Shown here piece after piece: positions 5,168 through 37,299 of a DNA stretch of 39,197 bases. The notes below the pieces were generated by a model that did no database searches, had not been told where the DNA came from, and saw only the letters and a program-made list of their open reading frames with translations. The position numbers and the translations under genes are program-made. This stretch comes from Marmoricola sp. (GTDB taxonomy: Bacteria; Actinomycetota; Actinomycetes; Propionibacteriales; Nocardioidaceae), in contig JAOPXD010000205.1 in assembly GCA_025965315.1 (NCBI GenBank), positions 1 through 39,197 of the forward strand, given 5' to 3'. Position 1 is the first letter of the stretch, and each line of letters begins with the position of its first letter.

Positions 5168-6061
5168 TCATACGTAGTTCACCAGGTGCGTCCCGGCGAC
5201 CGGTCCGGTCGCGACCACGACGCCCGGGTGCCCGGCATCGATCAGCGCTTCGCGGAGGTGGTGGGCGTCGTCCTGGTCGGCGACCAGGCCGAGGAAGGTG
5301 GGGCCGGAGCCCGAGAGCAGGGTGGCCAGCACACCGGCACCGCGCAGGTCCGCCTCGGTCCCGCGCAGGTCGGCGCGCAGCTCGAGGGCTGCTGCCTGGA
5401 GGTCGTTGTGGATCGCGGCGGCGAGACCGTCGAGATCGGCCGACGCGAGGGCATCCCGGACGCCCGCGGTGCTGGTCCCGCCACCACCGAGGGCGTCGAA
5501 CGCGCGGTAGACCTCGGGGGTCGACATCCCCTGGGGATGCGGCACGACGACCCACCACCAGGTGCCGTCGTCGGCCACCGGCTCGACGAGCTCGCCGCGG
5601 CCGGTGCCGTGGGCAGTGCCGCCGAGCAGTGCGAACGGGACGTCGCTGCCCAGCTCGGCAGCGATCGCCAGCAGGTCGTCGTCGCTGGTCTGCAGGTCCC
5701 AGAGCCGGTCCAGCGCGACCAGGGTCGCGGCCGCGTCGGCACTGCCCCCGGCCATCCCGCCGGCGACCGGGATCCCCTTGCTGATCCCGATCGAGGCGAA
5801 CCGGGTGATGCCGTGGTGGGCCGTGAGCAGCTGGCCGGCCCGGACCGCGATGTTGGTGTCGTCCAGCGGTACGCCGGAGCAGTCGACCTCACCGATCGGC
5901 TCGACGCTGACCGACCAGGTCGCTGAGGTGCTCACCGTGACGTCGTCGTACAGGCTGATCGCCTGGTAGACCGTGTCGAGCGGGTGGTAGCCGTCCTCGC
6001 GGACCGGACCGACCCCGAGCAGCAGGTTGATCTTCGCGGGGGCGCGGACGGTGATGCTCAT
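5168..6061 (-). CDS. ispE: 4-diphosphocytidyl-2-C-methyl-D-erythritol kinase
   Basis: This 297-residue GHMP kinase carries out the ATP-dependent phosphorylation step of the MEP isoprenoid pathway. The N-terminal substrate-binding region is [20 protein letters not shown], the glycine-rich ATP loop is [17 protein letters not shown], and the C-terminal GHMP motif is LLSGSGPT. The ATG overlaps the rsmA stop as ATGA, so the two are translationally coupled. The rsmA-ispE pairing is conserved in actinobacteria such as Mycobacterium. Confidence 0.95.
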
Positions 6062-6930
6062 CCGACCTCCCCCAACGCCTCGGTGATCGCGACGAAGCCG
6101 TCGATCTTGAGCTCCTCGCCCCGCGTCATCGGGTCGATCCCGGCCCGGGCCAGCGCCGCCTCGGCCGCTTCGGCGGACCCGGCCAGGTCCCGCAGCGAGG
6201 GGCGCAGGGCCTTGCGGCGGTGCGCGAAGGCCGCATCGATCACGGCGAACACCTGCTCGCGGGTCGCCGTGGTCCTCGGCGGCTCGCGGCGGGTCCAGGC
6301 GACCAGCCCGGAGTCCACGTTCGGAGCCGGCCAGAAGACGTTGCGTCCGATCGAACCGGCCCGGCGGACGTCGGCGTACCAGGCTGCCTTGACCGAGGGA
6401 ACGCCGTACGTCTTGGAACCGGGGACGGCGGCCAGGCGATCGGCGACCTCGGCCTGGACCATCACCAGTCCGCGTTCCAGCGACGGCAGCAGCGCCAGCA
6501 GGTGCAGCAGCACCGGGACCGAGACGTTGTAGGGCAGGTTGGCGACCAGTGCGGTCGGCGCCGGGCCGGGGATCTCGGTCACCCGGAGCGCATCGGCGAG
6601 CACCACCTCGAACGCACCGACCTGGTCCGGGGCGTGCGCCGCGATCGTGGCCGGAAGCGCGCCGGCCAGCAGCGGATCGATCTCCAGCGCGACCACCCGG
6701 CGCGCGACGGCGAGCAGCGCGAGCGTCAGCGAGCCGAGACCTGGGCCGACCTCGAGCACGACGTCCTCACCGGTGATCTTCGAGTCCGCGACGATCCGAC
6801 GGACCGTGTTCCCGTCGATCACGAAGTTCTGGCCGCGCTGCTTGGTCGGGCGCAGCTCGAGCCCCGCGGCGAGCGACCGGATCTCCACCGCCCCCAGCAT
6901 CGTCGGCTGGGAGGCGGGGCGATCGGTCAC
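6058..6930 (-). CDS. rsmA: 16S rRNA (adenine1518/1519-N6) dimethyltransferase
   Basis: RsmA (KsgA) dimethylates two adjacent adenines in helix 45 of 16S rRNA during small-subunit maturation. The protein has the opening [24 protein letters not shown] motif [17 protein letters not shown] and the catalytic [12 protein letters not shown] motif, with a Leu/Pro-rich C-terminal domain. At 290 residues it is of normal length. The GTG at 6930 has no clear ribosome-binding site; the ATG at 6900 is an alternative. It lies 112 bp downstream of rpf, in a gap that holds a long inverted repeat. Confidence 0.93.
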
Positions 6931-6948
6931 GTCGAGAAGGGTACGGCT

Positions 6949-7036
6949 CCGCTGAGGCGCGCCCTAACTGCATCTTCAAGGTGCCGACATGACGGTCTCG
7001 GCCGTAGGAAGGTGCGAGCAAGGCGCGCCTCGGCGG
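6949..7036. repeat. Long-range 15-bp inverted repeat between rpf and rsmA
   Basis: The arm at 6949-6963 (CCGCTGAGGCGCGCC) pairs with 7022-7036 (GGCGCGCCTCGGCGG) with a single G-U wobble, enclosing about 58 nt. It sits just after the rpf stop codon and before rsmA. It could act as an attenuator, an RNA-processing stem or a terminator that separates rpf expression from rsmA-ispE. There is no U-tract. Confidence 0.5.
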
Positions 7037-7042
7037 AGGGGG

Positions 7043-8197
<1,155 letters not shown>

Positions 8198-8208
8198 TCA
8201 CGAGGGGC

Positions 8209-8282
8209 CATTGCCTACGGCGCTCTCCGCGTCGCTTCGTGCAGCAATGTCCGGGATGTACTGATTCCCCGTTTCCGGCCAA
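8209..8282 (-). promoter_or_regulatory. Candidate rpf promoter and structured leader
   Basis: On the minus strand TTGGCC (plus 8277-8282) and TACATC (plus 8255-8260) are 16 bp apart. They predict a start near 8248 and a leader of about 78 nt. The RNA would open with CATTGC (8249-8244), which pairs with GCAATG (8214-8209) to close a GC-rich loop. I could not fit the c-di-AMP (ydaO) riboswitch consensus known upstream of some actinobacterial rpf genes. Confidence 0.3.
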
Positions 8283-8327
8283 CAGTGGTCGACCCTGACA
8301 GCGCAGCTGCCAGTTAGCAAACCGCTA

Positions 8328-8349
8328 GCACCCCGCTGAGCGGGGGTGC
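8328..8349 (-). terminator. Hairpin downstream of tatD
   Basis: GCACCCCGCT (8328-8337) pairs with AGCGGGGGTGC (8339-8349) with one bulged G. It lies 50 nt past the tatD stop and has no U-tract, as is usual for GC-rich actinobacterial terminators. Confidence 0.55.
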
Positions 8350-8381
8350 GTGCCCCAAGTCACGCCCGAACGACCCTAGGG

Positions 8382-8395
8382 GTGACCGCGGTCAC
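8382..8395. repeat. Perfect 14-bp palindrome after tatD
   Basis: GTGACCGCGGTCAC is a perfect palindrome starting four bases beyond the tatD stop codon. It may contribute to termination or be a protein-binding site; nothing decides between these. Confidence 0.45.
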
Positions 8396-8398
8396 GGG

Positions 8399-9259
8399 TC
8401 ACCACGACCCGCCGAAGGCGGCCTCGGTGTTCGCATCGATGGCCTGGCAGAGCTCGGTCAGGTCCATCTCCCGGGTCGCTGCCATCGAGCGCACCGTGGT
8501 CGGGATCAGGTACGACGCGTTGGGGCGCCCGCGCCAGGGCTCGGGGGTCAGGAACGGCGCATCGGTCTCGACCAGGATCCTGTCCAGCGGGGTGATCCGC
8601 AGGGCCTCGCGCAGCGGTGCGGCGTTCTTGAAGGTGACCGTGCCCGCGAACGACAGGTGCGCTCCGCGGGCCAGGCACTCCTCGGCGAACGCCGCGTCCC
8701 CGGAGAAGCAGTGCATCACCCAGCGCTCGGGCGGACCGACCTCGTCGATGACCCGCAGCACCTCCGCGTGCGCCTCGCGGTCGTGGATCATCAGGGTCCG
8801 GTCGTGCTCGTGGGCGATCTCGATGTGTCTCCGGAACGACCGCACCTGGGCGTCGAAGCCGTCCGGGCCGGTGCGGAACGTGTCCAACCCGGTCTCCCCG
8901 ACCACCCGGACGCGGTCGTGCTGGGCCAGGTCCTCGATCTCGGCGAGCGCGCTGTCGAGCAGGCCCTGCTCGGCCAGCCGGGGCGCCTCGTTCGGGTGCA
9001 GCGCGACACCGGCGACGATCGCGTCGAACTGGGCGGCCGACTCCACCGACCAGCGCGAGCTCGGCACGTCGACGCCGATCTGGATGATCCGGGGAACCCC
9101 GACCGCGGCGGACCGGGCCAGCGCCTCGGCCACGGCGACCGGCTCCCCCGGGCCCTCGTGCGCGGCGATGTCGAGGTGGCAGTGGTTGTCCACGACCGGG
9201 TGCGGCAACGGCTCCGGGTCGGGTGGCCGCTCGCCGGACCGCTGGGCGCTCCTGCTCAT
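8399..9259 (-). CDS. tatD: TatD family metal-dependent hydrolase
   Basis: This 286-residue TIM-barrel metal hydrolase has the HxH metal motif in [10 protein letters not shown] (H26, H28), GETGLD, the MIHDREAH strand, VMHCFSGD, and [20 protein letters not shown] near the end. TatD proteins are DNases or metal-dependent hydrolases. I chose the ATG at 9259 because it overlaps the rsmI stop as ATGA; the frame stays open further upstream but that part is inside rsmI. The C-terminus ends TEAAFGGSW. Confidence 0.93.
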
Positions 9260-10137
9260 TGCTTGTGCACCAGGTCGTACACGTCGCGCTTCGGTACGCC
9301 GGCCCGGCGGGCCACCTCGGCGATCGCGTCCTTGCGGGTCATCCCCTGCGCCTCCTCGGCGGCCACCCAAGCAGTCAGCGTCACCGGGTCGGTCACCGGC
9401 CCGGTGTCCTCGGCTCCGGCGACCACGATCGTCACCTCGCCCCGGACTCCCTCGGCGGCCCAGAGGACGAGGTCGGCCAACGGGCCACGGCGTACCTCTT
9501 CATGGGTCTTGGTCAGCTCGCGGCAGACGGCCCCGGCCCGGTCGGCACCGAACGCATCCGCCATCGCGGCGAGCGCGGCTTCGGTCCGGTGCGGCGCCTC
9601 GAAGAACACCAGCGTCCGCTGCTCGGCGGCCAGACCGGCCAACCGACGCGACCGCTCGCCGGCCTTGCGCGGCAGGAAGCCCTCGAAGCAGAACCGGTCG
9701 ACCGGAAGCCCGCTGACGGCCAGCGCGGTCAGGACGGCGGACGGTCCGGGGACCGACGTCACCGAGATCCCGGCCTCGACGGCAGCGGCCACCAGCCGGT
9801 ACCCGGGGTCGGAGACGCTCGGCATCCCGGCATCGGTGACCAGCACGACCCGCAGCCCGCTCACCAGCAGCTCGAGCAGGTACGGCGTCCGGGCCTCCTC
9901 GTTGCCCTCGAAGTAGGACAGCACCCGGCCCGAGACCTCGATCCCGAGGTCGGAGGTGAGCCGCTTGAGGCGGCGGGTGTCCTCGGCAGCGACGACGTCC
10001 GCCCCGGCGAGCTCCCGGGCCAGCCGCGGCGGCGCGTCCTCGACGCGCCCGATCGGCGTACCGGCGAGGACCAGCACCCCGGCGGTCGTCTCGTCGGCCG
10101 CCTTGTCGGCCGCCTTGTCGGCCTGCGTCGTCCCCAT
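9256..10137 (-). CDS. rsmI: 16S rRNA (cytidine1402-2'-O)-methyltransferase
   Basis: RsmI is a tetrapyrrole-methylase-fold enzyme that 2'-O-methylates C1402 in the ribosomal decoding centre. The N-terminal [21 protein letters not shown], the SYFEGNE strand, [35 protein letters not shown] and FEGFLPRK are all family blocks in order. At 293 residues the length is normal. It starts 49 bp from the divergent mannosyltransferase GTG. The N-terminus carries a short [11 protein letters not shown] repeat just after the start, which is probably non-functional. Confidence 0.95.
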
Positions 10138-16276: not shown

Positions 16277-17464
16277 TCACCGGGAGGGGCAGTTGTCCGC
16301 GAACGGCTTGCCCGCGAAACGGGCGAGCAACCACGGGAGTGCTGTCGGGACCATCTCGACGACACCGCTGATGTGCTCGCTGGTGTTGTTGGTGACGAAC
16401 CGGACCTTCGCCCCGTTCGCGCACCAGTCCTTGTCGAGCTGGTTCACGCTCGACCACGGGATCAGCTCGTCGTGCTTCGACTGCCACAGGTAGTACGGCG
16501 CAGTCGGAGCGCCGTGCCCGAGCTTGTTGTCCGCGAGGACGGCCTGGGCGACCGGAGTGCGGAGCGGGTCCGGCGAGTCGCTGAACTGCTTGATCGAGAC
16601 GAACGGATGGCTGGCCAGCCCGGTGACGCAGTCGTCCTTGATCGTGTCCGCGAACGCGACGCCCTTCGCGTTCAGGATGCTGCGCAGCTCGGGGTACTCG
16701 CGGCTCATCCCGATCGCAGCCCCCATGAAGAGGCCGCCGAAGGCACTCCCGTCGATGGCTCCGCCGGCGGCCTCGAGGTCAGCAGGCGTCCCACCGGACG
16801 CGATGCCTACGACGTCGAGCTCCGGCGCGTACGTCGGCTGCAGCTGCGCGGCCCAGCCGGTGGCGATCGCACCACCGGAGTAACCCATCATGCCGACCTC
16901 CGTGCCCGCCCCGGTCAGCTTCGACGTCGGCAGCGCGAGCGCACCGCGGATCGAGTCCAGGACGGCGTGCCCTGCCATCCGTCCCGCGGCGTAGGCGTTG
17001 CGCGGACCCTCGTGGTCCGGAACGACCACGGTGAGACCGCTGGCGACCGCGAGCGCCACCACCGCGGCCTCCTTCTCGGTACCGCTGCGCAGCGTGTACG
17101 ACGGCTCGCACTTCGCGCCGAGCGAGTCGGTGGCCATCTGGTAGGCCAGCAGCTCGTGCCGCACGCCGACCAGTGGCGTCACCACGGTCGCGGAGACCGC
17201 GGCCGGCTGCCCGTGCGAGTCGTTGGACCGGACCAGGATCTCCTGCGACGTCGCCGGCATCGGCACGGCGCTGCTGAGCAGGTTGACCTTGACGGTCCGG
17301 TGCCGGATGACGGTGCCGGGTGCGAGCGACGCCAGGTTGGCGGGCGCGACGTAGAACGGGTCGGTTGCCGGGTCCTGGACGGACGCGGCCCCTACCGGCG
17401 ACGTGGTCAGGACGGTGATCAGCGCTCCCAGCACTGCCACCCCCGCGATGAGTCGGGTCTTCAC
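16277..17464 (-). CDS. Secreted lipase (secretory lipase/LipA family)
   Basis: This 395-residue alpha/beta hydrolase of the secretory lipase family (as in Candida lipases) has a Sec signal peptide (about residues 1-27, MKTRLIAGVAVLGALITVL to AGAAS region). The nucleophile elbow is GYSGGA with S196. Asp lies in YYLWQSKHDELIPW and the catalytic His in NNTSEHISGV. It likely releases fatty acids outside the cell. Its GTG start overlaps the stop of the upstream fadD as GTGA, a translational coupling that links lipid hydrolysis to fatty-acid activation. Confidence 0.88.
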   Translation of the reverse strand: MKTRLIAGVAVLGALITVLTTSPVGAASVQDPATDPFYVAPANLASLAPGTVIRHRTVKVNLLSSAVPMPATSQEILVRSNDSHGQPAAVSATVVTPLVGVRHELLAYQMATDSLGAKCEPSYTLRSGTEKEAAVVALAVASGLTVVVPDHEGPRNAYAAGRMAGHAVLDSIRGALALPTSKLTGAGTEVGMMGYSGGAIATGWAAQLQPTYAPELDVVGIASGGTPADLEAAGGAIDGSAFGGLFMGAAIGMSREYPELRSILNAKGVAFADTIKDDCVTGLASHPFVSIKQFSDSPDPLRTPVAQAVLADNKLGHGAPTAPYYLWQSKHDELIPWSSVNQLDKDWCANGAKVRFVTNNTSEHISGVVEMVPTALPWLLARFAGKPFADNCPSR

Positions 17465-19104
17465 GTGATGTTCTCCCTCGGTTGAGCATGGACGTCGATG
17501 GCAGCCAGGTCGCGGCGGGCGACCTTGCCGGTCGGGGTGTACGGGATGGCCTCGAGGAACACGACCTCGCGCGGCACCTTGAAGCGGGCCAGGTTCGCCC
17601 GGATGTGGTCCTTCACGTCGTCCTCGGTGACGGGCTGCGACCCGTCGACCACGACGAACATCCGCAGCCGGGTCCCGAAGTCATCGTCGTCGACCGGGAG
17701 GGTCGCCACGTCCGCGACGCCGGGCATCGTGGCGACCAGGTCCTCGATCTCGCCCGGGAAGACGTTCTCGCCACCGGAGACGATCATGTCGTCGTCGCGG
17801 CCGTCGACGAACAGGCGTCCGTCGGAGTCCCAGTGCCCCGTGTCGCCGGTCCCCATCAGGTTGCCGACGACCGGCTTGCTGCCTCCTCCGGAGTAGCCGG
17901 TGAACTTGAGCCCGTTGTCGACGAAGATCCGACCCGTCGTACCGGGGGTGCTCACCGGCCGGTCCTCGGCGTCGAGCAGCTCGACCCGGATCCCACGGGG
18001 CGGTCGGCCGACCGTCCCGGGCGCCGCCGCCCAGTCCTCCGGCATCGCCACGGTCGCGAGCGCCACCTCGGTACAGCCGTACAGGTTGTGGATCACCGGA
18101 CCGAAGCGCTCGGTGGCCCGGTTGCCCAGGTCGGTCGGCAGCGCCGCGCCGGCGCTCATGACGATCCGCAGCGACGCGGTGTCGTGGGCGTCCAGGACCT
18201 CGTCGCCGAGTGCGAGGATCCGGCTGAGCATCGTCGGGACGAGCACGAGCACGGTGACCCTGTTGTCCGCGATCGCTTGCACCGTGGCCAGGGCGTCGAA
18301 CCGGCGGCGCAGCACGATCGTCGACCCCAGGGCCAGCGCCATGATGAATTGCGACAGACCGGTCCCGTGGAACGTCGGCGCAGCGATGAACACCACGTCG
18401 CCACGCCGCTGCGGCACCCGCTCCAGGAACTGGGCGGCGACGAGCGGCGACCCGATCGTGCGCGGCGCTCCCTTCGGGGTCCCGGTGGTTCCGCCGGTCA
18501 GCAGCACCATCCCGCCCTGCTGCGTCGGCCTCGGCAGTGGGTCGCCGGAGTTCGCCGCGATCAGCTGTGCGGTCGTCACCCGCTCCGGGTCCGGCTCGTC
18601 GGTCCAGGCGAGCACGCAGTGGACCGACGCCGGTACGGCGTCGAGGAGGTCCGCGAACTCGGCGTCCACGACGAGGACCTGCACGCCCTCGCGGGCGACC
18701 ACGTCGGCGAGCTGGGGCTTCGCGAAGCCGGTGTTGAGCAGCACCAGCCGGGCGCCGAGCTTGCCGGCCGCGATCATCACCTCGACGACACCCCGGTGGT
18801 CCCGGCACAGCACGCCGATCACCGCGCTGCCGGAACCGCTGAGCTCCGCCAGACCGCGGGCCAGGGCGTTCGCCTGCCGGTCGAGCTCGCCGTGGGTGAG
18901 GCTGCCGGTCTCGTCGATCAGCGCGATGTCGTCAGGTTTGCGCTGCGCCGAGATGTACGCCGTCCCGGCGATCGCGCCGAGCCTCCGGGTCGCCAGCACC
19001 GAGCGTGCCGTGAGCAACGGGCGTGCCAGGTCGACCATGCCGGCGCGCACGAGCACCGAGGCGCTGTGCAGCGCGTCGAACGGCGTACTCAAGGACCGGG
19101 GCAC
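17461..19104 (-). CDS. FadD-type acyl-CoA synthetase (paralog B)
   Basis: This 547-residue adenylate-forming enzyme is a clear paralog of the one at 14624. It has LLTGGTTGTPKGAPR (201-215), HNLYGCTEVALATVAMP, VDGRDDDMIVSGGENVFPGEIED, and a terminal YTPTGKVARRDL with the catalytic lysine. It resembles the mycobacterial FadD12 group. The GTG at 19104 has GGAGG seven bases upstream. Together with the coupled lipase it forms a two-gene fatty-acid uptake unit. A short palindrome lies directly upstream and could be the regulator site. Confidence 0.9.
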   Translation of the reverse strand: MPRSLSTPFDALHSASVLVRAGMVDLARPLLTARSVLATRRLGAIAGTAYISAQRKPDDIALIDETGSLTHGELDRQANALARGLAELSGSGSAVIGVLCRDHRGVVEVMIAAGKLGARLVLLNTGFAKPQLADVVAREGVQVLVVDAEFADLLDAVPASVHCVLAWTDEPDPERVTTAQLIAANSGDPLPRPTQQGGMVLLTGGTTGTPKGAPRTIGSPLVAAQFLERVPQRRGDVVFIAAPTFHGTGLSQFIMALALGSTIVLRRRFDALATVQAIADNRVTVLVLVPTMLSRILALGDEVLDAHDTASLRIVMSAGAALPTDLGNRATERFGPVIHNLYGCTEVALATVAMPEDWAAAPGTVGRPPRGIRVELLDAEDRPVSTPGTTGRIFVDNGLKFTGYSGGGSKPVVGNLMGTGDTGHWDSDGRLFVDGRDDDMIVSGGENVFPGEIEDLVATMPGVADVATLPVDDDDFGTRLRMFVVVDGSQPVTEDDVKDHIRANLARFKVPREVVFLEAIPYTPTGKVARRDLAAIDVHAQPRENIT

Positions 19105-19134: not shown

Positions 19135-19233
19135 TCAGATCACGACAGGAGGACGTTAACCCGAGCGAGCAGCGACCGCAAGGGTCAGCAGGTCATGGCG
19201 GACCGTGAGGTGGTCGGCGTCCCGACGTACAAG

Positions 19234-19277
19234 AACTCCCGCCTCCACACCAACGTTTAGGTGTGGAGGCGGGAGTT
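19234..19277. repeat. Perfect 18-bp stem, 8-nt loop
   Basis: The left arm AACTCCCGCCTCCACACC (19234-19251) is the exact reverse complement of 19260-19277. The loop is AACGTTTA. It follows the stop of the small minus-strand gene and may terminate it. Its size and perfection, and a second palindrome fused to it, also fit a decayed mobile-element end. Confidence 0.75.
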
Positions 19278-19297
19278 TCCCAACTTAAGTTGGGAAA
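19276..19297. repeat. Perfect 22-bp palindrome
   Basis: The sequence is exactly self-complementary, with arms TTTCCCAACTT and AAGTTGGGAAA and no loop. It shares two bases with the preceding 18-bp stem and lies 10 bp from the stop of the small gene at 19308. It is more AT-rich than its surroundings. Confidence 0.75.
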
Positions 19298-19307
19298 CCG
19301 GGCCACA

Positions 19308-19535
19308 TCAGCCGGCGAGCGGGCGGGACTTCAGGTCCGCGATGAGCTCCTCGCGGGCGAACCGACGCACGAGCACCGGGAGGTACTCGGTGATCTTCGC
19401 CGGCGGCTCGAGCTCGGCGCGGACCCGGTCGACGACACCGACGACGTCGGTGGGCGGGATCCGGCTCGCGAACTCGGCGGAGAGGTCCGCGACGACGCGG
19501 GCGAACTGCTGCTCGTTGCTCGGTGATGTCACCAC
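19308..19535 (-). CDS. Small three-helix-bundle dimerisation domain protein
   Basis: This 75-residue protein looks like the short actinobacterial 'three-helix bundle dimerization domain' family. It has an N-terminal helix QQFARVVADLSAEFA, then PTDVVGVVDRVRAELE, then KITEYLPVLVRRFAREELIADL. The function of the family is not established. The start is one of two adjacent GTGs (19535 or 19532), with GGAGGAG about eight bases upstream. It is divergent from the large NRPS gene across 112-142 bp of repeat-rich DNA. Confidence 0.7.
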   Translation of the reverse strand: MVTSPSNEQQFARVVADLSAEFASRIPPTDVVGVVDRVRAELEPPAKITEYLPVLVRRFAREELIADLKSRPLAG

Positions 19536-19568
19536 TGGCTCCTCCGGGGATCAGCTCGAGTTCGTGTC

Positions 19569-19658
19569 GTGCAGTGCCGCTCTGTGCATGGAGGGAGCGT
19601 GCACGGAGACATCGTGCAGGGAACAGGTGAACGGACGGTGAACCCGTTTGTTCACCTG
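19569..19658. promoter_or_regulatory. Phased repeats between small gene and NRPS
   Basis: Four GTGCA boxes start at 19569, 19584, 19599 and 19614, exactly 15 bp apart; the middle two extend to GTGCAYGGAG. Directly after them CAGGTGAAC (19624-19632) forms a perfect 9-bp inverted repeat with GTTCACCTG (19650-19658), and another GGTGAAC copy is at 19637-19643. The block occupies the only promoter space between the divergent genes, so binding by a regulator is likely. Confidence 0.5.
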
Positions 19659-19677
19659 GACCCACAAGACTGCGCCC

Positions 19678-22600
19678 GTGACCCCGCCCGTGCCCGTCCC
19701 GCTGCTGCGAAGCGCCCTCGCTGCGCCCGCACGCACGTTGGTCGACATCTTCCGTGAGGTCGTGTCGGAGTTCCCGGGCGCGCTCGCGCTCGACAGCGGG
19801 GTCGGGGTGCTCACCTACGCCGAGCTCGCCGAGGCGGCCGAGGACCTGGCCGAGCGCCTGGCCGAGGCCGGGGTGCGCCGGGGGGACAAGGTCGGGATCC
19901 GGATCCGGTCCGGCACCACCGACCTGTACGTCGCGATCCTCGGGGTCCTGCACGCCGGCGCCGCCTACGTGCCGGTCGACGCCGAGGACCCCGATGAACG
20001 CGCCCGGGTCGTCTTCGGGGAATCCGGCGTCCGGGCGATCGTCGGCAACGACCTGGCCGTCGCCACCGCTCACGGTGTCGGTGCGCTGGTCCGGCCGAAC
20101 GTCACCGCGGGCGACCCCGGCCCCGAGCACGATGCCTGGGTGATCTTCACCTCCGGCTCGACCGGGGCGCCCAAGGGCGTTGCCGTGACCCACCGAAGTG
20201 CGGCGGCGTTCGTGGACGCCGAGTCCCGGATGTTCCTGCAGGCAGATCCGATCGGCCCGCTGGACCGGGTGATGGCGGGTCTGTCGGTCGCCTTCGACGC
20301 TAGCTGCGAGGAGATGTGGCTGGCCTGGGCGTACGGCGCCTGCCTCGTTCCTGCTCCCCGGTCGCTGGTCCGCTCCGGCGTCGACGTCGGTCCGTGGCTG
20401 GTGGCGAACCGGATCACCGTGGTCTCGACGGTGCCGACCCTGGTCGCGCTGTGGCCCGCCGAGGCGCTGGAGACCGTGCGGTTGCTGATCATGGGCGGCG
20501 AGGCCTGCTCAGCGGAGCTCTCCAGCCGGCTGCAGGCGCCCGGGCGCGAGGTCTGGAACACCTACGGGCCCACCGAGGCCACCGTCGTCGCCTGCGGCGC
20601 CCTGCTCGACGGGAGTGAGCCGGTCCGGATCGGGTTGCCCCTGGACGGCTGGGACCTGGCCGTCGTGGACGCCGAGGGCAATCCGGTGGCCGAGGGCGAG
20701 ATCGGCGAGCTGATCATCGGCGGGGTCGGGCTCGCCCGCTACCTCGACCCGGACAAGGACGCCGAGAAGTACGCGCCGCTGGCGAGTCTCGGCTGGGCGC
20801 GCGCCTACCGGTCCGGGGACATCGTCCGCAACGACCCGGCCGGACTGGTGTTCGCCGGACGCGCGGACGACCAGATCAAGCTCGGCGGTCGCCGGATCGA
20901 GCTGGGCGAGATCGACGAGCAGTTGCTCCGCCTCCCCGGCGTCGCCGGCGCAGCGGCCGCCGTACGGTCCACGAGGTCGGGCAACCGACTGCTCGTCGGC
21001 TACGTCGTCGTGGACGACTCCTTCGACGCGCAGGCCGGGATCGAGGTGCTGCGACAGCGGCTGCCGGCCGCCCTGGTCCCCCGGCTCGCCGTGGTCGACG
21101 AGCTGCCGACGCGCACGTCGGGCAAGGTCGACCGGGACGCGCTCCCGTGGCCGCTGCCCAAGCCGCCGGCGATCGACCGGCCGCTGGAGGGCGTGCACGC
21201 CTGGATCGCCGAGATCTGGCACGACGTGCTCGGCGCGGACGTGGCCTCGCTCAAGGACGACTTCTTCGACTTCGGTGGCGGCTCGTTGACCGCGGCGCAG
21301 GTGGTGAGCCGGCTGCGCGAGCGTTACCCGGAGATCGCCGTCGGCGACCTGTACGAGAACCCGACGGTTGCCCGGCTCGCGATTGCTCTGGCCGAGCACG
21401 GCGGCGTCGTCGTCGCCTCGGACCGGCAGGTGCCACCGATCCCGCGCAAGACCCAGGCCGGGCAGCTGGCCGCGCTGCTCCCGCTGCGCACCCTGGCAGC
21501 GGCCCGCTGGATCTCCTGGCTGCTGCTGACCGGTTCGCTCGCCAGCACCGTGGTGGACCTGCCCTGGTGGCCCGACGTCCCGCTCGGCTGGACGATCCTG
21601 ACCACAGTGGTGTTCGTGCTCGCGCCGGGGCGGATGCTGCTCGCGGCCCTCCTCGCCCGGGTGGTCCTGCGCGGCGTGACCCCGGGCTCGCACCCCCGCG
21701 GCGGCAAGGTGCACCTGCGGCTGTGGCTCGCCGAACGCATCCAGGACGAGCTCGCCGCGCCCGGGCTGGCCGGCGCTCCGTGGATCCCCCTCTACGCACG
21801 CCTGCTCGGAGCCACGATCGGGCGTGCGACCGACGTGCACACGCTGCCTCCGGTGACCGGCTTCCTGACCCTGGGCGACGGCGCCGCGATCGAGCCCGAG
21901 GTCGATCTGCGCGGCCACTGGATCGACGGGGACGTCGTGCACATCGGCAGCATCGCCGTCGGCGCCGGCGCCCGGATCGGCGCGCGCAGCACCTTGGCCC
22001 CGGGAGCGGACGTCCGCGACAACGCCGAGGTCGCCCCGGGCTCGCTGGTCGTCGGCGAGGTACCCGCCGACCAGTTCTGGTCGGGCTCACCGGCCGAGCG
22101 CGTCACCCGGCACGCACGCGGCCCGTGGTCGACCGAGGCGCCACCGCGCAACTCCGGCTGGGCAGTCACCTACGGGTTCGTCGCGGTGCTGATCGCCGCG
22201 CTGCCGGGCACGGGACTGGTCGCCGGAGCAGCCGTGCTGCTTCCTGCCATCCACCACCAGCACACCCTCGGCGCCGCGATCAGGGCCGGACTGCCCTGGC
22301 TACCGCTGGCAGCGCTGACCGGGTACGTCGTCCTGGCCGGGCTGGTCCTGGTCGGCGTACGGCTGCTCGGGGTGCGGATGAGTGCCGGCCACTTCCCGGT
22401 GCGCTCGGCGGCCGGCGTCCGCATCTGGGCGACGCTGCGGGTGCTCGACGAGGCCCGCACCTGGTTGTTCCCGCTGTACTCCAGCGGGCTCACGCCGCTC
22501 TGGTTGCGGTCGCTCGGCGCCGAGATCGGTCACGGCGTGGAGGCCTCGACGGTGCTGCTGCTGCCCCGGTTCACGCACGTGAACGACGACGCCTTCCTGG

Positions 22601-23562
22601 CCGACGACACCCTGATCGGCTGCTACGAGCTCGGGGGTGGCTGGATCCGGGTCGAGCACGTGAAGATCGGCAAGCGCGCCTTCGTCGGCAACTCCGGGAT
22701 GGCGGCCGCGGGCCGGAAGGTTCCGAAGGCCTCCCTGGTCGCCGTGCTGTCCGCGGCGCCGGCACGGACCGCGGCCAGGGCCGGGTCCTCGTGGGTCGGC
22801 AGCCCCCCGACCCGGCTTCGTCGTACGGCGGGGAGCACCGACACCAGCCGCACCTACGAGCCACCCCGCCGGCTGCGCGTCCTGCGCGGGGTCGTCGAGC
22901 TCGGCCGGGCCGTGCCCGCCCTGATCGGCGTCCTGCTCAACGTCGCCGTGGCCGCCACCCTGCTCCGGCTGATCGCGGTGCAACCGGTCGTCGCGTTCGT
23001 CGTCGGTGGCGTCGTGATGATCGCGGCAGGGCTGGTCGCGGCCGGGCTCACCGTGATCGCGAAATGGGTCCTGATCGGCCGGCACACCCGCTCGGAGCAC
23101 CCGTTGTGGTCCGGGTTCGTGTGGCGCAACGAGCTCGCCGACACCTTCACCGAGATGCTGGCCGCCCCCTGGTTCGCCTCGGTCACCCAGGGCACCTACG
23201 CCCTCAACGTCTGGTTCCGCCTCCTCGGCGCGAAGATCGGCCGCGGCGTCTGGTGCGACACCTACTGGCTCCCGGAGACGGATCTGGTCGAGCTCGGCGA
23301 CGGCGCGGTCGTGAACACCGGCTGCGTGGTGCAGACTCATCTCTTCCACGACCGGGTCCTGAGCATGGACCGGGTGACGCTGAAGGAGGGGGCGACCCTG
23401 GGACCCAACAGCGTCATCCTTCCTGCCGCGACGATCGGACGGCATGCGACCGTCGGCCCGGTGTCGCTGGTGATGCGCGGCGAAGCGGTCCCCAACCGGA
23501 CCCGCTGGATCGGCAACCCGATCGGCCCGTGGGACGTCGAGAACAGGAGCGTCGAGGAGTGA
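19678..23562 (+). CDS. Pls/PosA-family single-module NRPS (poly-epsilon-lysine-synthetase-like)
   Basis: This protein of about 1294 residues has the architecture of epsilon-poly-L-lysine synthetase Pls: an adenylation domain, a carrier domain, then six membrane segments interleaved with three tandem C-terminal domains. Adenylation blocks are IFTSGSTGAPKG, NTYGPTEATV, YRSGD, GRADDQIKLGGRRIELGEID and RTSGKVDR. The carrier site is FDFGGGSLTA (S536). Pocket residues aligned by eye to GrsA read D-A-E-S-I-G-T-V-V-K, lysine-like, with a Glu suited to a side-chain amine. The tandem domains contain left-handed beta-helix repeats (AVGAGARIGARSTLAPGA; KEGATLGPNSVILPAATIG). There are no condensation or thioesterase domains. 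The start is uncertain (GTG 19678 or TTG 19648). The stop overlaps the peptidase start. Confidence 0.9.
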   Translation: MTPPVPVPLLRSALAAPARTLVDIFREVVSEFPGALALDSGVGVLTYAELAEAAEDLAERLAEAGVRRGDKVGIRIRSGTTDLYVAILGVLHAGAAYVPVDAEDPDERARVVFGESGVRAIVGNDLAVATAHGVGALVRPNVTAGDPGPEHDAWVIFTSGSTGAPKGVAVTHRSAAAFVDAESRMFLQADPIGPLDRVMAGLSVAFDASCEEMWLAWAYGACLVPAPRSLVRSGVDVGPWLVANRITVVSTVPTLVALWPAEALETVRLLIMGGEACSAELSSRLQAPGREVWNTYGPTEATVVACGALLDGSEPVRIGLPLDGWDLAVVDAEGNPVAEGEIGELIIGGVGLARYLDPDKDAEKYAPLASLGWARAYRSGDIVRNDPAGLVFAGRADDQIKLGGRRIELGEIDEQLLRLPGVAGAAAAVRSTRSGNRLLVGYVVVDDSFDAQAGIEVLRQRLPAALVPRLAVVDELPTRTSGKVDRDALPWPLPKPPAIDRPLEGVHAWIAEIWHDVLGADVASLKDDFFDFGGGSLTAAQVVSRLRERYPEIAVGDLYENPTVARLAIALAEHGGVVVASDRQVPPIPRKTQAGQLAALLPLRTLAAARWISWLLLTGSLASTVVDLPWWPDVPLGWTILTTVVFVLAPGRMLLAALLARVVLRGVTPGSHPRGGKVHLRLWLAERIQDELAAPGLAGAPWIPLYARLLGATIGRATDVHTLPPVTGFLTLGDGAAIEPEVDLRGHWIDGDVVHIGSIAVGAGARIGARSTLAPGADVRDNAEVAPGSLVVGEVPADQFWSGSPAERVTRHARGPWSTEAPPRNSGWAVTYGFVAVLIAALPGTGLVAGAAVLLPAIHHQHTLGAAIRAGLPWLPLAALTGYVVLAGLVLVGVRLLGVRMSAGHFPVRSAAGVRIWATLRVLDEARTWLFPLYSSGLTPLWLRSLGAEIGHGVEASTVLLLPRFTHVNDDAFLADDTLIGCYELGGGWIRVEHVKIGKRAFVGNSGMAAAGRKVPKASLVAVLSAAPARTAARAGSSWVGSPPTRLRRTAGSTDTSRTYEPPRRLRVLRGVVELGRAVPALIGVLLNVAVAATLLRLIAVQPVVAFVVGGVVMIAAGLVAAGLTVIAKWVLIGRHTRSEHPLWSGFVWRNELADTFTEMLAAPWFASVTQGTYALNVWFRLLGAKIGRGVWCDTYWLPETDLVELGDGAVVNTGCVVQTHLFHDRVLSMDRVTLKEGATLGPNSVILPAATIGRHATVGPVSLVMRGEAVPNRTRWIGNPIGPWDVENRSVEE

Positions 23563-24860
23563 CCGGCACCGACCCGTACGTGCCCGGCCACGGGGACCCG
23601 TCGTACGACGTCACTCACTACGACCTGGTGCTGCGCTACCGCCCCGAGTCCAACCGTCTCGACGCCGAGGCCAGGCTGACCTGTACGGCGCTCGCACCGC
23701 TGACCTCGATCCGGCTGGACCTGCACCAGCTCGCCGTCGCGAAGGTGAGCGGGACCGGGGTGACGATCACCCGCTGGACCCAGCGCGGCAGCACCGTGCT
23801 GGTCACGCTCAAGTCCGCCGCGAAGGCCGGCACCGTCTTCAAGCTCAGGATCAAGTACTCCGGCCATCCCGGCACCGTTCCCTCGGCGGTCCTCGGCGAC
23901 GCCGGCTGGGAGGAGCTCACCGACGGGGTGATCGTCGCGGCGCAGCCGCACGGAGCCCCGGCCTGGTACCCGTGCAACGACCGTCCCGACGACAAGGCGA
24001 CGTACACGTTCGAGGTCTCGGTCCCGCCGGACTACCACGTGGCCGCGAGCGGCGACCTGCTCTCGACCCAGCGCAGCGGCTCGTCGGTGACCTGGCGCTA
24101 CGAGCAGACCGCACCGATGGCGAGCTACCTCGCGGCGATCCAGATCGGCCGGTACGTCGTCCACGAGCAGGACTCGACCGTCCCGATGCGGGTGGTCGCA
24201 CCGCGCGACGTCGGCGGTGCCGGGTTCGACGGCTCCTTCGGGCGTCAGCCGGAGATGATGGCGTTCTTCGTCGACCGGTTCGGCCCGTACCCGTTCCGCA
24301 GCTACACCTCGGTGATCACCGACGACGTCCTGGAGATCCCGCTGGAGTCGCAGTCGCTGGCGACCTTCGGTCGCAACTTCGCGACCGGCGACTGGCACTC
24401 GGTCCGCCTGGTCGCCCACGAGCTCGCGCACCAGTGGTTCGGCAACGCGGTGACGCTGGCGCACTGGCGCGACATCTGGCTGCACGAGGGATTCGCGTGC
24501 TACTCCGAGTGGCTCTGGTCCGAGGAGTGCGGGGTCAGACCCGCGCACGGCTGGGCCGAGCACTACCACCGCAAGCTGGCCGAGCAGCCCCAGGACCTGC
24601 TGCTCTCCGACCCGACCCCGGAGCTGATGTTCGACGACCGGGTCTACAAGCGCGGGGCGCTGACCCTGCACGCGCTGCGCCGGACCGTCGGCGACATGGC
24701 GTTCTTCCACCTGCTGCGGTCCTGGGTCGCGGAGAACTCCGGTGGTTCGGTGACGACCGAGGAGTTCGTCGCGCACTGCAACGAGCAGGTCGGCAACGAC
24801 CTGACCCCGCTGTTCGACGCGTGGCTGCACAGCACCGCGCTGCCGGCGCTACCCCAGTAG
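23559..24860 (+). CDS. M1 family metallopeptidase
   Basis: This 433-residue zinc aminopeptidase-like protein has the HExxH site at H287-E288-H291 in VAHELAHQWFGNAV and the third ligand E310 in DIWLHEGFA. The usual GAMEN exopeptidase motif is replaced by LESQS (about 262-266). That is seen in bacterial short M1 members, so true aminopeptidase activity is not certain. No signal peptide is visible. It is shorter than classical M1 enzymes because the large C-terminal helical domain is missing. The GTG start overlaps the NRPS stop as GTGA. Polylysine producers are known to carry a zinc aminopeptidase that degrades the polymer, so a matching role here is a reasonable inference. Confidence 0.9.
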   Translation: MTGTDPYVPGHGDPSYDVTHYDLVLRYRPESNRLDAEARLTCTALAPLTSIRLDLHQLAVAKVSGTGVTITRWTQRGSTVLVTLKSAAKAGTVFKLRIKYSGHPGTVPSAVLGDAGWEELTDGVIVAAQPHGAPAWYPCNDRPDDKATYTFEVSVPPDYHVAASGDLLSTQRSGSSVTWRYEQTAPMASYLAAIQIGRYVVHEQDSTVPMRVVAPRDVGGAGFDGSFGRQPEMMAFFVDRFGPYPFRSYTSVITDDVLEIPLESQSLATFGRNFATGDWHSVRLVAHELAHQWFGNAVTLAHWRDIWLHEGFACYSEWLWSEECGVRPAHGWAEHYHRKLAEQPQDLLLSDPTPELMFDDRVYKRGALTLHALRRTVGDMAFFHLLRSWVAENSGGSVTTEEFVAHCNEQVGNDLTPLFDAWLHSTALPALPQ

Positions 24861-25337
24861 CGCCACAGCGACGGCGTACCCGTCGGGTGCGTCGAGGTAC
24901 TCCAGGACGCCCGGGAACCACCGCACGGTGACCTCGGTCATCGGTCGGGCGAGACCGGTTCCGTAGACCTTGAGGATCGCTTCCTTCGCCGCCCAGAGCC
25001 GGGCCATCTCGGCACCTGTTCCGGCGGACTCGGTCGGTGCCAGCATCTCCGCGAGCGGCCAGTCCCGGTCGATCGCCTCGATGTCGATCCCGACCGCCAC
25101 CGCCTCGGGCGCCACTGCCGTGAGCAGGTGCTCGCCGGCACGCGTGATCGAGACCGGGACGTCGCGCCCGTCGAGCCGCATCCAGGGTCGACCATGCACG
25201 TCGCTGCCGCAGGAGGCGCACAACCGCCCGACCGTGACGTCGCCGGCGCCGAGCAGGGCGGTGACCTGCTCGGTCAGCACCTCGGCCGCGTCCGCGGACG
25301 AGGGCGATCGGACCACGGAGCACGGCGGCGACTGCAC
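24849..25337 (-). CDS. 4'-phosphopantetheinyl transferase
   Basis: This 162-residue protein transfers phosphopantetheine from CoA to carrier-protein serines. The Mg2+-binding motif is VAVGIDIE (D85, E87) and the second motif is LWAAKEAILKVYG (115-125). It is shorter than Sfp at the N-terminus. It overlaps the tail of the M1 gene by 12 bp on the opposite strand. The nearest carrier domain is that of the NRPS, so it is the likely activator, though it could also serve other carriers. The GTG at 25337 lies six bases from a TAGCCT element (25344-25349), consistent with a leaderless mRNA. Confidence 0.88.
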   Translation of the reverse strand: MQSPPCSVVRSPSSADAAEVLTEQVTALLGAGDVTVGRLCASCGSDVHGRPWMRLDGRDVPVSITRAGEHLLTAVAPEAVAVGIDIEAIDRDWPLAEMLAPTESAGTGAEMARLWAAKEAILKVYGTGLARPMTEVTVRWFPGVLEYLDAPDGYAVAVALLG

Positions 25338-25389: not shown

Positions 25390-26328
25390 GTGGACCCCGC
25401 TGCCTTCCCGAACCTGGATCCCGAGCTCGTCGAGTTCGTGGCGAGCCTGCCCGACATGGGCAACGCCCTCGACGACATCCCCGGCGCCCGTCGCATGCTC
25501 GCCTCGATGATGCCCGCCGGGCCGGTGCCCGGCGAGGAGGACCTCGACATCACCGACGAGACCGCCCCGGGCGATCCGGACGTCGCGGTCCGGGTCTACC
25601 GGCCACGCGGCAGCACCGGCGAGCTGCCCGGTCTGCTGTACATCCACGGTGGCGGCTTCTGCATCGGCGACGCCGCGAGCGAGCAACGCGGCGCGGTGTC
25701 CCTGGCGCGACGGCTCGGCGTCGTCGTGGTCAACGTCGACTACCGGCTGGCGCCCGAGGACCCGCACCCGGCCGCGATCGAGGACTGCTACGCGGCCCTG
25801 CAGTACCTCGCCGGACTGGACGGAGTCGACACCAGCCGGCTGGTCGTGCACGGCAACAGCGCCGGTGGCGGCCTCGCTGCCGCGACCGCCCTGATGGCGC
25901 GCGACCGCGGCGGGCCGGCGCTGTGCTTCCAGTCGCTGGGGATCCCGGTGCTCGACGACCGGTTGGGGACGCCGTCGATGACGACGTTCGTCGACACCCC
26001 GTTGTGGAGCCGGAAGCAGGCCGCGAAGTCCTGGGAGCTGTACCTCGCCGGCGTTCCGGCGGACCAGTACGCCGCCCCGGCCCGGGCCACCGACCTGACC
26101 GGGCTGCCGCCGGCGTACGTGCTGACCTGCGAGCTCGACCCGCTGCGCGACGAGGGCCTGACCTACGCGATGCGCCTGCTGGCGGCGGGTGTCTCCACGG
26201 AGGTCCACAACCTGCCGGGCGCTTTTCACGGCACCTCGATCGTGCCGTCCTCGGCGGTCGCGAAGCGGATGGATGCCGAGCTGCTCGTCGTCCTGGCCAG
26301 GGCCCTCGGCGTCACGATCGCGCGATGA
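25390..26328 (+). CDS. Alpha/beta hydrolase, HSL-type esterase
   Basis: This 312-residue cytosolic esterase of the hormone-sensitive-lipase family has the oxyanion motif HGGGF (86-90), nucleophile S157 in GNSAGGG, acid in ELDPLRDEG and His in GAFHGT. Such enzymes hydrolyse short- to medium-chain esters. The GTG at 25390 appears leaderless. It is followed by a strong hairpin terminator, so it is a single-gene unit. Its link to the nearby polymer genes is positional only. Confidence 0.9.
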   Translation: MDPAAFPNLDPELVEFVASLPDMGNALDDIPGARRMLASMMPAGPVPGEEDLDITDETAPGDPDVAVRVYRPRGSTGELPGLLYIHGGGFCIGDAASEQRGAVSLARRLGVVVVNVDYRLAPEDPHPAAIEDCYAALQYLAGLDGVDTSRLVVHGNSAGGGLAAATALMARDRGGPALCFQSLGIPVLDDRLGTPSMTTFVDTPLWSRKQAAKSWELYLAGVPADQYAAPARATDLTGLPPAYVLTCELDPLRDEGLTYAMRLLAAGVSTEVHNLPGAFHGTSIVPSSAVAKRMDAELLVVLARALGVTIAR

Positions 26329-37002: not shown

Positions 37003-37049
37003 ACACAACATCTAGTCCCACGGTTTTTCGCGACCCCCACATATGGTGG
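37003..37049 (+). promoter_or_regulatory. Tandem NrdR boxes
   Basis: Box 1 ACACAACATCTAGTCC (37003-37018) fits the NrdR consensus acaCwAtATaTwGtgt well. A weaker box 2, CCCCCACATATGGTGG (37034-37049), starts exactly 31 bp later, the usual three-turn spacing. Box 2 covers a TATGGT -10-like element (37042-37047). NrdR represses ribonucleotide reductase genes. Confidence 0.6.
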
Positions 37050-37054
37050 CTCAC

Positions 37055-37246
37055 GCAACTGGTTCGGCGCTGCATCCAGCAGCGCTGAGGCAAGAGGGAA
37101 TCCGGTGCGAAACCGGAACTGCCCCGCAGCGGTGAGTGGGAACGAACGCCGTCAACTGCACTGGGTCCGCACGTCCGGGACCTGGGAAGCGACGGCCACT
37201 AGGAGGCCTCCGGGCCGTGCCCACGAGTCCGAAGACCTGCCAGTGC
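37055..37246 (+). ncRNA. Cobalamin (adenosylcobalamin) riboswitch
   Basis: The region has the cobalamin riboswitch core: GAATCCGGTGCGAAACCGG and CTGCCCCGCAGCGGTGAG (about 37099-37135), CTGGGAAGCGACGGCCACT, and the B12 box AGTCCGAAGACCTGCCAGT (37226-37244). A P1 stem closes from ACTGG (37058-37062) to CCAGT (37240-37244). It lies in the leader of nrdA. In Streptomyces coelicolor the same riboswitch turns off the class Ia nrdABS operon when coenzyme B12 is plentiful, leaving the B12-dependent class II enzyme to act. Confidence 0.93.
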
Positions 37247-37299
37247 ACCGCGCCCGACGGGCGCGGTGGTCCGATGCCGCGTGGGACGGCTGACGGCTC

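Follow-up and report, generated by a model that had tools for sequence, protein, structure and literature searches.

Epsilon-poly-lysine is an industrial, natural food preservative. In Streptomyces albulus the peptidase gene pldII lies directly downstream of the synthetase gene pls, with a 4-bp overlap and within a single operon (PMC4361855, available text), and the available part of PMC9223678 describes PldII as translationally coupled, external to the cell membrane and needed for self-protection. A Pls and peptidase operon with a 4-bp overlap is likewise reported outside Streptomyces, in Corynebacterium variabile, where the Pls homologue made epsilon-poly-lysine on heterologous expression in S. 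coelicolor and no polymer was detectable in the native host (PMC8117764, available text), so that loci of this kind can be silent; the main text of that paper makes no mention of a 4'-phosphopantetheinyl transferase (PPTase). The delta-poly-L-ornithine synthetase PosA is of the same kind as Pls and is presented, in the available part of PMC10522769, as a single-gene operon with no cotranscribed neighbour. The pairing of pls with a peptidase gene through a 4-bp overlap is already published, and the core of the locus described here is of a known kind; because the antiSMASH class NAPAA co-occurs with poly-L-lysine in the literature, such loci are probably annotated routinely. The less expected element, and the one worth following, is a recurrent PPTase neighbour. 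Our literature search, made chiefly among papers free of subscription and with the original Pls and PldII papers outside it, found no report of PPTase linkage to a polylysine synthetase; PPTase mentions in the available parts of PMC4361855 and PMC8949500 concern other matters, and the available part of PMC9606270 contains none.

The window, by which we mean the whole 39,197-nucleotide stretch of DNA that was analysed, holds a pls gene paired with an M1 peptidase gene, unlike the single-gene operon of PosA, and, unlike the S. albulus locus, has a PPTase gene adjoining the pair. Its features are as follows.

17461-19104, minus strand: FadD2/FadD12-like acyl-CoA ligase (best NCBIfam score below the curated cut-off)
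19223-19302: dispersed repeat with two hairpins, a short way upstream of pls
19648..23562, plus strand: pls, predicted NRPS-like epsilon-poly-L-lysine synthetase of 1,304 aa (TIGR02353, TIGR01733, Pfam)
20296..21126, plus strand: part of the A domain that carries the substrate code (alignment to 7wew)
21202..21384, plus strand: carrier (thiolation) domain with a GGGSL motif (PF00550, 57.1 bits)
21463..23523, plus strand: terminal polymerisation domain with three repeats (TIGR02353, AlphaFold2, Foldseek)
23559..23562, plus strand: GTGA, the M1 start (GTG, 23559-23561) over the pls stop (TGA, 23560-23562)
23559..24860, plus strand: M1 zinc metallopeptidase of 433 aa, PldII-like by position (PF01433, Peptidase_M1; PF17900, Peptidase_M1_N)
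24417..24488, plus strand: HELAH-X18-E zinc motif of M1 (motif match)
24849..25337, minus strand: compact Sfp-type PPTase of 162 aa (Pfam ACPS, 34.6 bits, cut-off 25)
25390-26328, plus strand: LipP1-like esterase (best NCBIfam score below the curated cut-off)

The initial annotation had drawn attention to a locus of pls, M1 and PPTase genes; this observation holds, and the same genes cluster in many other genomes, beyond chance. The pls gene starts at TTG 19648, with an alternative in-frame GTG at 19678. Its product scores 650.9-653 bits against TIGR02353, the NCBIfam profile of the Pls/PosA terminal domain (cut-off 423.1), and 334.6 bits against the NCBIfam amino-acid adenylation profile TIGR01733. 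Pfam places AMP-binding at residues 35-364, AMP-binding C at 421-493 and the carrier at 519-579, and to these A and carrier domains the TIGR02353 terminal domain is fused at residues 606-1292; hexapeptide repeats (Hexapep) are also found, and the five Pfam families listed at E <= 0.001 include neither a condensation nor a thioesterase domain. The proposed Pls architecture of adenylation domain, carrier and membrane region without a thioesterase is thus borne out by the domain order and by a TIGR02353 score above cut-off, and on sequence evidence the synthetase is a member of the Pls/PosA family. Ser546 of the carrier, the expected phosphopantetheine site, is invariant in 12 of 12 aligned sequences.

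The terminal domain was modelled with AlphaFold2 from an alignment of 78 sequences, giving a mean pLDDT of 92.0 and a pTM of 0.91. This confident model consists of three copies of a helix pair plus a beta-helix, in support of the three tandem C-terminal domains that had been proposed. Its best Foldseek matches are hexapeptide-type acetyltransferases, each of them local, and the only solved relatives found by sequence are weak hexapeptide-repeat matches (best E 3.1e-4). A hydropathy scan of Pls gave five hydrophobic stretches, the last of double length and enough for two, so that six membrane segments, arranged as three helix pairs, are plausible. The model resembles that published for PosA, in which three left-handed beta-helices are packed on six helices (PMC10522769, available text), and is therefore a confirmation rather than a discovery.

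The substrate was predicted from the substrate code, from bit scores and from comparison with the PDB entry 7wew, an epsilon-poly-L-lysine synthase which we take to be S. albulus Pls. This entry is the best PDB match of the window A domain (615 bits, against 388 for the runner-up; 62.6% aligned identity), which agrees with the earlier view that the domain would group with Pls and not with unrelated ligases. The code residues D217, A218, E221, S260, I281, G283, T305, V313, V314 and K493 spell DAESIGTVVK, a ten-residue code that the window shares with 7wew and with 138 examined loci; 6 loci have other codes. The code and the likeness to 7wew make lysine the predicted substrate, with no contrary sign at the level of the code to lysine-type activation, and the predicted product is most likely epsilon-poly-L-lysine. 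Other cationic polymers, built from ornithine, diaminobutyrate, diaminopropionate or beta-lysine, are made by family members with other codes (PMC10522769, available text), and we consider it highly improbable that the window synthetase builds one of these: its code differs both from that of PosA (DMEHNGTVSK) and from that of the S. hindustanus beta-lysine enzyme (DGESISVVNK), and at code position 2 it has the Ala of lysine enzymes, whereas diaminopropionate and diaminobutyrate enzymes have Phe (PMC10522769, available text). In the examined loci, moreover, M1 neighbours go with the lysine code only, being present in the examined stretch of 137 of 138 lysine-code loci, plus the window, and in 0 of the 6 loci with other codes, two of which lie on short contigs. 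Of the products first suggested, a lysine code the same as that of 7wew favours epsilon-poly-lysine over another cationic polyamide.

The same survey turned up several divergent arrangements. L200 (G445) is the sole lysine-code locus of the 138 without an M1 match in the examined stretch. In the phylum genomes behind L192, L193 and L199, the gene of a Pls-type terminal domain is separate and lies upstream of an A-domain gene coded DIWQSTADDK, with no M1 in the examined stretch; these are split, non-lysine relatives, and the A domains of L211 and L213 match this code fully or almost fully. L210 carries, at 5423-9416 on the minus strand, a Pls relative coded DFEYNGTVTK, with Phe at position 2 as in diaminopropionate and diaminobutyrate enzymes; its stretch shows no M1, and a PPTase matching the profile used below lies about 2.3 kb downstream.

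The reported coupling of the synthetase to an M1 metallopeptidase through GTGA was confirmed in the sequence as an overlap of 4 nt, and the HEXXH-X18-E zinc motif of the peptidase is intact. Among the 139 loci holding both genes, M1 is on the pls strand in all 139, lies within 150 nt of pls in 133 and shares with it an in-frame [ATG]TGA start-stop overlap in 92; in the named loci, the best 80 of at least 588, M1 is downstream of pls on the same strand in 80 of 80. Wider gaps between the two genes were seen in the Williamsia and Tsukamurella loci L110, L130, L131, L138 and L140 (0.6-2.2 kb) and in L206 (0.36 kb).

Within the window's family the Pls terminal domain was found in 42 of 149 genomes, the window's own included. 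Among the matches listed at E <= 1e-40, an M1 of at least 50% identity is present in 41 of these 42 genomes and in 0 of the 107 without Pls; the match in G017 is partial, and in G148, the one Pls genome without such an M1, the Pls match lies at a contig end. The next-best M1 matches elsewhere in the family genomes have 31-42% identity (again among the matches listed), and the M1s of L187-L191, five large-genome relatives with the lysine code, are 45-49% identical to that of the window. On the question of whether the peptidase groups with polymer-degrading enzymes, the window M1 falls with Pls-linked M1s, separated from the rest by a clear gap (at least 50% versus at most 42%, matches listed). 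That it is instead a general aminopeptidase, and not a polymer-degrading partner, is an interpretation to which the many M1 homologues of 31-42% identity in these genomes lend some weight, as does the lack of an evident signal peptide (no hydrophobic N-terminus in a hydropathy check); we regard it as decidedly improbable in view of the split among the listed matches, the translational overlap with pls and the published activity of PldII (PMC4361855 and PMC9223678, available text). By analogy with PldII, a degrading, self-protective role is what we infer for the window peptidase.

The PPTase gene had been described as overlapping the tail of the peptidase gene, and it does so by 12 nt, the two genes being convergent. 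Its position on the opposite strand places it outside the pls-M1 operon and means that co-expression with pls and M1 is not implied; membership of the PPTase in the operon was ruled out for the window on this ground, and in L064 the gene is on the same strand. Of the three-gene unit suggested in the initial annotation there remains an operon-like pair of pls and M1, together with a PPTase linkage that recurs, while a single transcript is contradicted by the convergent PPTase. The predicted fold of the enzyme is Sfp-like over its full length, with the pseudo-dimeric fold and the metal/CoA motifs present. Compared with the Sfp/PptT PPTases it is compact (162 aa versus about 220), and 12 of the 15 rows listed show Ser-x-x-Arg at the site where canonical enzymes have His.

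Linkage was counted with a profile grown from the window PPTase, in loci with at least 600 nt downstream of M1. For the 42 family genomes with Pls, regions were taken for 40 and the window stands for G000, while G148 and the extra places in G104 and G123 were left out; L046 and L073, with less than 600 nt downstream, were also left out, L073 showing a partial PPTase. In the resulting 38 family loci a PPTase lies beside pls-M1 in 28 and none was found there in 10; 27 of the 38 have it just downstream of M1, and the 28 linked loci comprise 26 convergent arrangements, one on the same strand (L064) and one upstream of pls and divergent (L056). A second TIGR02353 place in the same-genus draft G104 (C71 and C159) is cut by a contig end.

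In the named loci, the best 80 of at least 588 confirmed and hence a set that leans towards the window's relatives, linkage was found in 18 of 78 (L097 and L105 left out), that is, in 18 of 31 non-Mycobacteriales and 0 of 47 Mycobacteriales. Orders were assigned by genus name, with Speluncibacter, Antrihabitans and Ornithinimicrobium looked up, and the uncultured or unclassified bins L091, L148 and L150 were counted as non-Mycobacteriales. The linked taxa in these best 80 are Nocardioides, Ornithinimicrobium, Aeromicrobium, Propionibacteriaceae, Kocuria, Microbacterium, Agreia, Rhodoglobus, Humibacillus, Compostimonas and unclassified bins. Because the family and named sets share what seem to be the same loci (L048/L087, L044/L113, L055/L134 and L051/L092), their counts are not independent. 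A phylum-wide draw gave a PPTase beside pls-M1 in 3 of 19 loci and none found in 16, and none was found in the examined stretch near pls of L187-L191. Taken together, these counts point to a PPTase linkage that is lineage-specific rather than universal.

The other neighbours of pls do not recur in this way. The flanking ligase and esterase were rejected as members of the unit, since only L066 and L068, the window's closest relatives, showed close matches to them beside pls; a small number of other loci have more remote ligase and hydrolase matches. Window positions 19312-19548, upstream of pls, gave no match in a Pfam scan. The dispersed repeat consists of 18-nt perfect arms (19234-19251 and 19260-19277) followed by a 24-nt palindrome (19275-19298), has 13 further matches in the draft genome (84-92% over 62-94 nt) and is MITE/REP-like. 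Further along the window, a cobalamin riboswitch scores 88.9 bits at 37043-37258.

Which enzyme primes Pls was considered from the PPTases and carriers of whole genomes. In the window's draft genome two PPTases and two carrier domains were found, one of each in the pls locus, although at 90.5% completeness and 217 contigs the draft may lack further ones; the other carrier is ACP-sized, and the other, AcpS-like PPTase would be expected to serve it. Among the family genomes a second PPTase (PF01648) occurs in 37 of 42 with Pls and 34 of 107 without (p 2.9e-10), a contrast also seen within genus g19, which has many of both kinds (19 of 19 versus 11 of 18), and among the remaining genomes (18 of 23 versus 23 of 89); since PF01648 misses linked PPTases that our own profile finds (the G060, G076, G090 and G128 loci), the contrast is a lower bound for Pls genomes. 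Where a PPTase is linked, 11 of 30 genomes had exactly two carriers, and so had 5 of 10 genomes with an unlinked pls, by a search that misses some carriers, as it came back empty in 13 of 149 genomes. The argument that few carriers imply a dedicated PPTase is weakened by the unlinked genomes.

The linkage, together with the finding of just two PPTases and two carriers in the window genome, makes the window PPTase a likely candidate for a dedicated activator of Pls. The synthetase and peptidase could be just as described and the PPTase an unrelated, general-purpose enzyme lying there by chance, with another PPTase priming Pls. Such a view would accommodate the opposite strand, the many pls loci beside which no PPTase was found, the low carrier numbers of unlinked genomes and the PPTases of this kind that also occur where no Pls match was found (L214, L215 and L216, in G078, G117 and G012, match the linked profile). 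It sits poorly with a linkage that is seen in 28 of the 38 family loci, recurs across scattered genera and takes three forms; by simple arithmetic, 2-3 PPTase genes per 4 Mb would put chance adjacency well under 1%, and the only other carrier found in the window genome is the ACP-sized one, the expected client of the AcpS-like enzyme. We judge a chance neighbour unlikely.

Overall, the locus very probably serves to synthesise epsilon-poly-L-lysine, to prime its synthetase and to trim the polymer. The PPTase would move phosphopantetheine from CoA onto Ser546 of the Pls carrier; this priming step and the expression of the locus are presumed. The A domain would activate L-lysine with ATP and load it onto the carrier arm, after which the membrane-embedded terminal domain, in which a helix bundle bears three beta-helix units, would link lysines one by one through their epsilon-amino groups and pass the growing chain out, a polymerisation that we infer from the characterised relatives of S. 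albulus and C. variabile. The M1 peptidase, translated with pls via the GTGA overlap, may shorten a polymer harmful to its producer and so limit polymer length.

More tentatively, and with a little less than even confidence, we suggest that non-mycobacterial actinobacteria carry a three-part epsilon-poly-lysine module in which an Sfp-type PPTase of reduced size, dedicated to Pls and in most cases convergent with the peptidase gene, is retained next to pls as an on-switch; hosts lacking the linked gene, such as Mycobacteriales, would rely on a general PPTase. The locus is a well-supported candidate for epsilon-poly-lysine production, and the linkage bears on pls genes that are silent or unproductive, for example in C. 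variabile, where the carrier may be unprimed. If the suggestion is true, PPTase supply would help to account for pls loci that stay silent and for heterologous production that fails, and the small PPTase is a possible co-expression partner for pls.
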